Source of the DNA: Secundilactobacillus hailunensis
GTDB lineage: Bacteria; Bacillota; Bacilli; Lactobacillales; Lactobacillaceae
Direction of reading: 5' to 3'
DNA length: 64,000 nucleotides
Assembly: GCF_005405185.1 (NCBI RefSeq)
Contig: NZ_BJDO01000002.1
Coordinates: 1-64,000, forward strand
The notes under the pieces were generated by a model. It saw nothing but the letters and a program-made list of their open reading frames with translations. It was not told the origin of the DNA and did no database searches. Of this stretch, positions 9,484 to 10,980 are shown piece after piece; the first letter of the stretch is position 1; every line of letters starts with the position of its first letter. Made by a program: the position numbers and the translations under genes.

Positions 9484-9849
9484 ATGAAAGCTTGGGCTCG
9501 GATTTTAATCAACGCCGTGTTATTTATGGCACTAGCTGGTTTTTTAAGTACCAGTTTTTACGTGGCCAGTCCGTGGATCGCGTTATTAGCCAGTGTGGTT
9601 TTATCGGTGTTAAACGCATTAGTGAAACCAGTGCTGCAAATTCTATCACTGCCAATCACCGTGGTGACGCTGGGCTTATTCAGCATCGTGATCAACGGGG
9701 CAATGCTGCAGCTGACCTCAATGTTAATTGGTAATGACTTTCATTTCAGTTCATTTGGAACGGCGCTGTTAGTGGCCGTTTTGATGTCGCTGTGTAACGC
9801 CGTCATTTCCAATTACGTCGGTCACGGCCATAAGCAGAGTAAAGAGTGA
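9484..9849 (+). CDS. YvlD-type (phage-holin-like family 4) membrane protein
   Basis: 121 residues with about four membrane helices and short loops. The central LNALVKPVLQILSLPITV and LGLFSIVINGAMLQL blocks are typical of the YvlD/DUF360 family, which is annotated as holin-like but is a cellular envelope protein. It is probably co-transcribed with the PspC gene before it. The biochemical role is not known from sequence. Confidence 0.75.
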   Translation: MKAWARILINAVLFMALAGFLSTSFYVASPWIALLASVVLSVLNALVKPVLQILSLPITVVTLGLFSIVINGAMLQLTSMLIGNDFHFSSFGTALLVAVLMSLCNAVISNYVGHGHKQSKE

Positions 9850-10041
9850 TAATCACCTCCGTATTTCTCATGAGGACCAGATTTGGAAAGAAGGGCGAGC
9901 CACTACTGGCTGGTGTTAGCTAAAATGGTTTCTGATGAGAATGATGTTTAAACGGAGTATAAAATCCCCGGTGGCTAACCGGGAAACTAAAGTGACAGCG
10001 CTTTAGTTCATGCACATCGTGTACCAGTAGTGGTCAATAAT
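9850..10041 (+). promoter_or_regulatory. Structured leader upstream of hprK (candidate cis-regulatory RNA)
   Basis: Four complementary sets are visible. Stem A: CTCCGT (9857-9862) with ACGGAG (9952-9957), and TTCTCAT (9865-9871) with ATGAGAA (9935-9941). Stem B: CCACTACTGG (9900-9909) with CCAGTAGTGG (10024-10033), a perfect 10-base pair set. Hairpin C: CCCGGT (9967-9972) / ACCGGG (9978-9983). Hairpin D: ACTAAAG (9986-9992) / CTTTAGT (10001-10007). A and B cross, so they exclude each other. The 3' arm of B covers the only ribosome-site-like bases of hprK. No known riboswitch class was recognised. A 23-codon basic reading frame (9935-10006) lies inside the structure without a good ribosome site. 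Confidence 0.45.
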
Positions 10042-10980
10042 TTGGCAGAAAGTGTAACAGTTGCAGAATTAGTCAAAAATATTCGCCTAGACGTGCTTTA
10101 CGGCGATGATTTCTTAGCTGACCGGAAGATCTCGACCAGTGATATTTCACGGCCAGGGCTTGAATTAACGGGTTACTTTAACTACTACCCAGCTAAACGG
10201 ATTCAGCTATTGGGGATCACTGAGACCTCCTTTGCGAAGGGCATGAGTCATGATGATCTCTTAAAAGTCATGCGGCAGATGTGCCAGCCTGAAACGCCCG
10301 CGTTTGTAATCTCAACGCAGCTTGAACCGCCGGAAGAATTACTGCAGGCGGCTAAGGAAACCAACATTCCAATTCTGGGCACTAAAATGACGACTTCCAG
10401 AGTTTTGAGTAACATGACCAACTATCTGGAAGGTAAATTGGCTGAACGCCAGTCACTGCACGGTGTTTTAGTTGATATCTACGGTGTCGGGGTCTTGATT
10501 ACCGGTGATTCCGGTGTCGGTAAGAGTGAAACCGCGTTGGAACTGGTTAAGCGTGGTCACCGGCTGATTGCTGATGACCGGGTGGAAGTCTATCAACAAG
10601 ATGAACAGACCTTAATTGGTGAAGCACCCGCGATTTTGTCACATCTATTGGAAATTCGTGGTATTGGGATCATCGATGTGATGAATCTATTTGGTGCCGG
10701 TGCGGTTCGCAGTGAAACCGATATTGAACTGATCGTCCACCTAGAAGCGTGGACTCGGGATAAGAAGTTTGATCGTCTAGGAAATAATTCCGAAACCCAA
10801 AAGATTTTTGACGTTGAGATCCCTAAGATTTCGATTCCCGTTAAAACGGGTCGGAATTTAGCCATCATCATTGAAGCCGCGGCCATGAACTTCCGGGCCC
10901 GTTCAATGGGTTATGACGCAACCAAAGTGTTTGATCAGAACCTCAACCGACTGATCAAGAAAAATTCCAACGAGAAATAA
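10042..10980 (+). CDS. hprK: HPr kinase/phosphorylase
   Basis: 312 residues from TTG 10042, which gives the family N-terminus (M)AESVTV; a GTG at 10030 would add four residues. The bifunctional enzyme phosphorylates HPr of the sugar phosphotransferase system on a serine and removes the phosphate, setting carbon catabolite repression with CcpA. The catalytic histidine (SLHG, about 140), Walker A GDSGVGKS (155-162) and the signature EIRGIGIIDVMNLFG are present. The upstream leader folds over its weak ribosome site. It starts the hprK-lgt-gpsA cluster usual in lactobacilli. Confidence 0.95.
   Translation: MAESVTVAELVKNIRLDVLYGDDFLADRKISTSDISRPGLELTGYFNYYPAKRIQLLGITETSFAKGMSHDDLLKVMRQMCQPETPAFVISTQLEPPEELLQAAKETNIPILGTKMTTSRVLSNMTNYLEGKLAERQSLHGVLVDIYGVGVLITGDSGVGKSETALELVKRGHRLIADDRVEVYQQDEQTLIGEAPAILSHLLEIRGIGIIDVMNLFGAGAVRSETDIELIVHLEAWTRDKKFDRLGNNSETQKIFDVEIPKISIPVKTGRNLAIIIEAAAMNFRARSMGYDATKVFDQNLNRLIKKNSNEK

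Follow-up and report, generated by a model that had tools for sequence, protein, structure and literature searches.

The hprK gene of Secundilactobacillus hailunensis is preceded by a structured leader that is likely, as far as sequence comparison and computed folding can tell, to be a domesticated deletion derivative of an IS607-type tnpB/RAGATH-18 transposon, working as a split ribosome-binding site. The leader probably folds in such a way that a replacement Shine-Dalgarno (SD) sequence is held next to the start codon, so that hprK stays translated. The window analysed is the whole 64,000-nt stretch at the start of contig NZ_BJDO01000002.1; an earlier note on it had pointed to two crossing stems ahead of hprK and had taken them for a possible switch of hprK translation.

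The hprK locus and the architecture of its leader

The hprK gene (10042-10980, forward strand, start codon TTG at 10042) encodes a protein with the domains Hpr_kinase_N and Hpr_kinase_C that is up to 96% identical to proteins of named Secundilactobacillus species. Upstream lie a PspC gene and a Phage_holin_4_2 gene, the latter separated from hprK by a gap of about 190 nt that holds the leader, all of whose elements are given here on the forward strand. Stem A consists of an outer helix (9857-9862 with 9952-9957) and an inner helix (9865-9879 with 9926-9941) with small bulges. Within it lie loop L1 (9885-9894), the candidate surrogate SD GGAAAGAAGG, and, adjoined by L1 on its 5' side, the 5' arm of stem B (9899-9909), which pairs with 10024-10034 in 11 pairs, a basal G-U included; the UUG start follows 7-8 nt 3' of stem B. 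A further helix, P (9915-9922 with 9972-9979), joins GUUAGCUAA to the GGCUAAC loop of hairpin C (9967-9983), the corresponding arms being AUUAGC and GCUAAU in L005 and GUUAAC and GUUAAC in L088. Hairpin D (9985-10008) follows. The earlier note's stems A and B, their crossing and its two further hairpins, C and D, are all borne out; helix P, which also crosses A, had been missed. B and P are mutually nested and each crosses A, so that all of them can be drawn as a single pseudoknot, and A, B and P are best read, on their predicted pairings, as one such pseudoknot rather than as the mutually exclusive stems that A and B had been supposed to be.

At gathering score the only Rfam match across the window is a tRNA, the leader having none, and a more permissive search (up to E 5) of the 401 nt that surround the leader (9750-10150) likewise gave no match. 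The leader thus fits no described family in Rfam, in agreement with the earlier note, which had recognised no known riboswitch class. Directly before stem A stands GATAAT (9849-9854), by eye a possible -10 box, which is absent from the promoter scan. Hairpin D is similar, by eye only, to the cre palindrome TGACAGCGCTTTA and to the AAAGTGATA hprK promoter box of relatives, and may be a cre-like site or what is left of such a promoter.

Covariation and folding

The leader is found in nine of 15 Secundilactobacillus genomes, the other six having hprK without it, and A, B and P are retained in all nine leaders, which come from the one genus only and include two that are nearly identical (L082 was kept despite its near-identity to the window). 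In an alignment-free arm-swap test, in which 5' arms were paired with the 3' arms of other species in 20,000 permutations, self-pairing was matched by no permutation for A, by 250 for P and by 808 for B, which varies little within the hprK leaders. On a MAFFT alignment of the nine sequences, not fitted to the structure, 89.9% of the cells assigned to pairs are paired, vs. 85.2% after shuffling, and 15 of 54 pairs are changed on both sides, vs. a shuffled mean of 6.1 and with none of 500 shuffles as high; the structures slid along the alignment give only 3 to 7 such pairs. These changes include pairs in the outer (4 of 6 pairs) and inner (5 of 14) helices of stem A, both of whose 3' arms are thus supported by the arm-swap test and by alignment covariation alike, as well as in stem B (3 of 11) and helix P (2 of 9). 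Stem B has 99.0% of its cells paired and hairpin D 90.6%, with no pair of D changed on both sides; the inner helix of A has 78.6%, in an alignment with one misplaced bulge. The compensatory changes in relatives that the earlier note had proposed to look for are therefore present, with A, B and P covarying among the nine leaders. The fold of the 211-nt leader has a z score of -3.99, equalled by none of 200 shuffles.

Start codon and displaced Shine-Dalgarno sequence

The hprK start lies within TTGGCAG at all nine leader loci; the in-frame GTG at 10030 was rejected as a start, being unconserved and reading GCG in L001. Over the 20 nt before the start the anti-SD energy is only -2.7 to -6.0 kcal/mol at the nine leader loci, while at all 74 of the hprK orthologs without a leader it is -7.4 or better (mean -11.3); these 74 loci were drawn from 80, and the best nearby in-frame start was taken for each, a bias in their favour. 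The hprK genes of the leader loci have lost their usual local SD. What they have instead is L1, whose core AAAGAAGG is invariant in all nine leaders, as is the extended SD RAAAGAAGG, with anti-SD energies of -9.8 to -12.2. The earlier note had the 3' arm of B covering the only SD-like bases of hprK; in the window those bases reach -2.7 kcal/mol, against -9.8 for L1, which lies 5' of B.

Measured along the sequence, L1 is 126-153 nt from the start codon at all nine loci, too far for an SD, but the conserved structure between them gives a usable predicted distance: across stem B, present in all nine, there remain 4-5 plus 7-8 unpaired nt. This is the arrangement of a split ribosome-binding site, in which L1 would bind the anti-SD, stem B would carry L1 to the UUG, and P and A would brace the fold, the state with B formed being the expected ON state. 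A spacing of 11-13 nt together with a helix end is long for an SD and counts against the split-site reading. Of the earlier note's idea that the leader switches hprK translation, the structured cis-acting leader is supported; the hiding of an SD by B is not, and B more likely delivers one, because an invariant and strong SD-like loop is 5' of B and the start directly 3' of it. Control of the leader by a signal is possible but unsupported, and nothing was found that points to the new input into carbon catabolite control that had been suggested, the relatives of the element being transposon sequences before unrelated genes.

A different conserved leader lies directly before hprK at L053:2388-2510 and at 11 other Lactiplantibacillus loci (alignment A3). 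It forms a hairpin with conserved internal CTTGAAA and GGAC and a terminator-like T run at its end, with changes on both sides in 14 of 31 predicted pairs, and is possibly an attenuator of hprK; Rfam searches of L053 and L048 gave nothing beyond one chance-level match.

Resemblance of the leader to tnpB/RAGATH-18 transposons

A covariance model (R1) built from the nine hprK leaders alone, and whose E-values are rough, matched transposon-type leaders elsewhere in the family, genus g38 being represented by three genomes (E 3.3e-4 to 5.4e-4 per genome) and genome G285 by a match at E 0.052; rescored in 55.7 kb, the g38 leader L152 has E 1.7e-7. Genus g38 is Lactiplantibacillus-like, its HprK being 95-99% identical to that of L053 (L. 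plantarum) in six of six genomes tested. The R1 matches and the hprK leaders have in common AAAGAAGG-N5-CTGCTACTGR, a TTAGC or CTAGC stretch, a GCTA-loop hairpin and the end CAGTAGCA. Of 397 family genomes, 40 contain the relaxed pattern AAAGAAGG-N5-CYRCTRCTGR and none the reversed one. In 12 of the 20 genus copies fetched with the pattern, the motif sits in the middle of a tnpB frame of 377-409 aa; the one product checked in Pfam carries Cas12f1-like_TNB, OrfB_IS605 and HTH_OrfB_IS605. RAGATH-18, described as the guide RNA core of IS607-type TnpB (PMC11061315), stands at the right ends of all five intact copies scanned (46.1-52.3 bits, cut-off 44.9). It was found in seven of the 15 genus genomes, all of them leader-bearing, and in none of 14 control genomes; the genome of the window itself has five matches, four of them above the cut-off.

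Hairpin C of the hprK leader corresponds to the hairpin at the 5' flank of the RAGATH-18 guide RNA, hairpin D occupies the place of the core, and the 3' arm of stem B is the counterpart of the transposon right end TCAGTAGCAG. Sequence-only profiles of the relatives rank the leader first in the window, though weakly, at E 0.098 for the L1-B-P block, and hairpin C against the relatives' right ends is again the window's best but weak match (E 0.049), the best values in the reversed window being 0.84 and 0.48, respectively. The leader itself has no Rfam match to the RAGATH-18 core and no TnpB frame in cis, only the roughly 190 nt between the genes, and neither a left end nor AGGAG was seen in the window's copy. 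In ISFba1 a pseudoknot, PK2, in which a hairpin loop pairs with the 3' end of the scaffold, is reported to be needed (PMC11061315); its equivalent was computed to be weaker than in intact copies (-4.4) in four of six hprK leaders and equal in two. Among the weaker candidates, the short family matches of the first DNA search (L089-L094) were taken as chance, the weak R1 matches L121 and L125-L127 were inspected and not accepted, and L132 and L133, which have the pattern without a right end, were dropped.

Insertion sites

Forty regions of the genus were collected, 20 by the motif and 20 by RAGATH-18, and in 38 of them the right end could be located by its core (L169 and L172, without that core, were excluded). 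Every one of the 38 scored copies has its right end 5-13 nt (median 8) ahead of a host start codon, the host start being counted where the frame was open for at least 60 codons or ran off the stretch. The local anti-SD energy before these starts is -6.9 to 0.3 (n=38). The domains of the downstream genes fit pyrH (AA_kinase), aspS, mvaS, sufB and lepA, these names having been assigned by us, and host genes such as these are probably essential.

At the other side, GGAG or GAGG occurs within 16 nt before the left end in all 15 strictly recognised cases, and AGGAG in 13 of the 15. Published target-adjacent motifs from 22 strains read AGGAG in 18 cases and GAGGG in the other 4 (PMC11061315); AGGAG is the SD itself. 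An empty sufB site in G115 reads AAGGAGGAGTAGCAAATG, and in G237 the element sits between AAGGAG and GAGTAGCAAATG; the sufB comparison covered 4 of 12 sufB loci. Because right ends precede starts and the SD precedes left ends, and from the sufB site, the elements separate SD from start. Across the phylum a start codon is found 3-17 nt after the right end in 12 of 17 elements, and not in the other five.

Many left ends (e.g. L165 and L175) read, by eye, GGAGG-N-ATGAACAGTAAC, a possible short frame after the host SD; those of L170, L171 and L257 have ATA. One of the regions also holds a T-box leader (L166:1-238, minus strand), clipped by the end of the stretch and scoring 55.7 bits, below the family cut-off of 93.

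A surrogate SD and a right-end complement inside tnpB

The SD-like site within tnpB has an anti-SD energy of -8.7 to -13.1 (n=37) and is unbeaten by any other window of the gene in five of seven tnpB genes checked; better energies than that of L1 were found in 6 of 402 windows in L166 and in 10 of 391 in L243. In a scan of 18 tnpB frames of at least 370 aa, synonymous identity peaks at the motif and just before it, the top window (codons 246-255) reaching 0.951 against a mean of 0.616 (sd 0.113) and lying wholly outside the codons of the search pattern (259-266). The codons CAG, TAT, GCA and AAA before the motif and CTA, CGG, GTG and CAA after it are identical in all 153 pairs. Synonymous identity is also high, about 0.85-0.90, at the 3' end of tnpB.

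A motif-free test was made with RAGATH-18 loci across the phylum, found in 14 of 299 genomes. Fourteen loci had enough flank and 13 of these an intact tnpB, which L268 is without; L259, L270, L274 and L275 were omitted as contig ends. Across Bacillota the best complement of the right end within tnpB lies at stop -436 to -443 in 12 of the 13 genes, in each case 4-6 nt 3' of an SD-like stretch, although these 12 loci are not independent, coming from 8 genomes and 5 families with 8 of the 12 in family f35. L264 and L269 have AGAAGGAGGTGAATA followed by the complement of CTGTAACGG, and the L260 type has AAAGGTGGTAGTA followed by the complement of AGTAGCAG; the SD-like stretch of L271 is AAAAGAGGTGAAAAGT, the complement in L272 is weak (-9.1), and the tnpB of L273 has no right-end complement. 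Shuffled right ends had their best site at that place in 11 of 520 trials. When partners were swapped among 13 representative elements, none of 20,000 permutations reached the sum of the self pairings, and both pairing sides covary.

We infer that the leader as a whole descends from such a transposon, the 5' arm of stem B going back to the stretch of tnpB that is complementary to the right end. On the scheme that we propose, the transposon would use AGGAG, the SD of the host gene, as its target-adjacent motif and so insert between SD and start codon. Within its tnpB there would be a surrogate SD and, 3' of it, a stretch complementary to the right end of the same transposon; in a putative read-through mRNA that stretch would pair with the right end, forming stem B and leaving about 11-13 unpaired nt between the surrogate SD and the start codon of the host gene. 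On the way to the hprK leader the original SD and the left end would have been lost, together with the RAGATH-18 core and most of tnpB; what is kept would be L1 (9885-9894) as the surrogate SD, along with stem B, helix P and the bracing stem A. Since B and PK2 draw on the same right-end bases, the fold for translation and that of the guide RNA should be incompatible, and in mobile copies B and P would accordingly be expected to compete with the latter. Intact copies would need pairing across about 0.6 kb of translated mRNA, which counts against the scheme. We lean slightly towards the full joint reading, in which TnpB/RAGATH-18 transposons target the SD, the tnpB RNA doubles as the carrier of a substitute SD pulled in by right-end pairing, the bases shared with PK2 force a choice between host translation and guide RNA, and the compact form has been domesticated before hprK, BCCT, pyrH and aspS.

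Compact derivatives before other genes

Compact forms have no recognised left end and are without most of tnpB, and they keep L1, the 5' arms of B and P, and the right end. Two stand before pyrH, one in G162 (L256) and one in the window's own genome (L258, G000:C13:1-1300), both found by RAGATH-18; others precede aspS (G253) and a yaaA-like gene named by eye (G285). A compact leader before a BCCT transporter gene is present in all 21 sampled g38 genomes (L134-L154), and its stem A covaries (0 of 20,000 permutations). In all 21 genomes the CAGTAGCAG right end is followed, 7 nt on, by an AUU of the BCCT frame, with no ATG, GTG or TTG conserved at that place, and the AUU is possibly the start. 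The anti-SD energy is -4.5 before this AUU, -0.4 for pyrH and -3.0 for aspS, with L1 at about -9.4 in all three; all derivatives except those of pyrH were found via the motif or the hprK model, and their retention of the motif is in part a selection effect.

Alternative explanations

The main competitor is the reading of the earlier note, in which A and B form as alternatives and the initiation region of hprK is hidden by B in response to a ligand, a protein or some other signal. Stem B does end 7 nt ahead of the start codon, stem A is transcribed earlier than the 3' arm of B, and the nested A-only and B-only folds, at -59.6 and -49.5 kcal/mol in the window, are close in several species. The bases that B covers, however, contain no conserved SD (-2.7 to -6.0), L1 being both invariant and uncovered; the same pairing precedes many unrelated genes in transposon copies, and no known RNA class matches, so that we regard a switch of this kind as unlikely. 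A ligand riboswitch in particular had the conserved structure as its sole support and was rejected. It would be still more surprising if the leader were a structured remnant, setting the stability of the mRNA or carrying a promoter, with hprK initiating without an SD. Ribosomes may start without an SD at a UUG whose surroundings are AU-rich, but all 74 other orthologs have an SD, and L1 is not only invariant but recurs together with B across Bacillota.

Two further explanations begin from the transposon itself. Insertions before probably essential genes need some means of tolerance, and group I introns are combined with insertion sequences in IStrons (PMC4227781), so that the insert might be spliced from the mRNA, rejoining SD and start codon. 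The Rfam matches include no intron of group I or II, whether in five intact copies (up to E 3) or in six leader loci (up to E 1), and the hprK leader has neither the original SD nor a left end for splicing, which makes this very improbable. We give the least credence to a retained guide RNA, by which the leader would still make a TnpB guide, with the hprK start as guide, and its structure would be kept for that. The leader does match the right end of a guide-RNA transposon, and seven of the nine leader genomes hold RAGATH-18 copies as a potential supply of TnpB; yet the RAGATH-18 core is gone from the leader, PK2 is weakened in four of the six leaders computed (equal to intact copies in two), the covarying A and the elements L1, B5' and P5' lie outside the published scaffold, and G185 and G253 retain the leader without any RAGATH-18 match.

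Implications and comparison with known systems

If the split-site reading is right, a mobile element can land where silencing of the gene would be expected, even before a probably essential gene, and do so harmlessly, the insertion being made harmless by the element's own ribosome-binding signal, positioned by long-range RNA pairing. That would supply a biological reason for the AGGAG target motif of the IS607-type TnpB nucleases, would stretch split ribosome-binding sites from tens of nucleotides to more than 100 (hundreds in intact copies), and would be a case of transposon ends converted to gene-control RNA. It would also matter for annotation, where such genes would seem SD-less and their leaders would seem to be orphan riboswitches. 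In the titles and abstract openings of the open-licence literature we found no report that TnpB elements insert at SDs or that a transposon brings a substitute SD with it.

The closest mechanistic parallel is in genes 25 and 38 of phage T4, where RNA structure shortens the distance between SD and start from 27 to 11 nt and from 22 to 5 nt (PMC3014915). As there, structure between SD and start cuts the distance, in the hprK leader to a predicted 11-13 nt; the hprK case differs in its gap of 126-153 nt, its pseudoknot, its chromosomal gene and its apparently transposon-derived parts, and there is no homology. Pseudoknot riboswitches of the preQ1 type likewise place a pseudoknot at the initiation site, but the hprK leader has no Rfam match or sign of a ligand, and its SD is open and, on our model, carried to the start rather than buried. 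With the IS607-type TnpB/RAGATH-18 elements, as described in the available part of PMC11061315, the leader shares the GCTA-loop hairpin, a CAGTAGCAG-like end and a host gene directly after it, and its mobile relatives share the AGGAG target motif; it differs in having no tnpB frame, left end or RAGATH-18 core, and the tnpB-internal SD and right-end complement, from which its L1 and B would derive, do not figure in that part of the description. The IStrons (PMC4227781) resemble the proposed arrangement in that a transposon is rendered harmless by an RNA structure which it brings along. There the means is group I self-splicing, while at hprK it would be the restoration of translation initiation, which would make elements of this kind a translational counterpart of the self-splicing IStrons.
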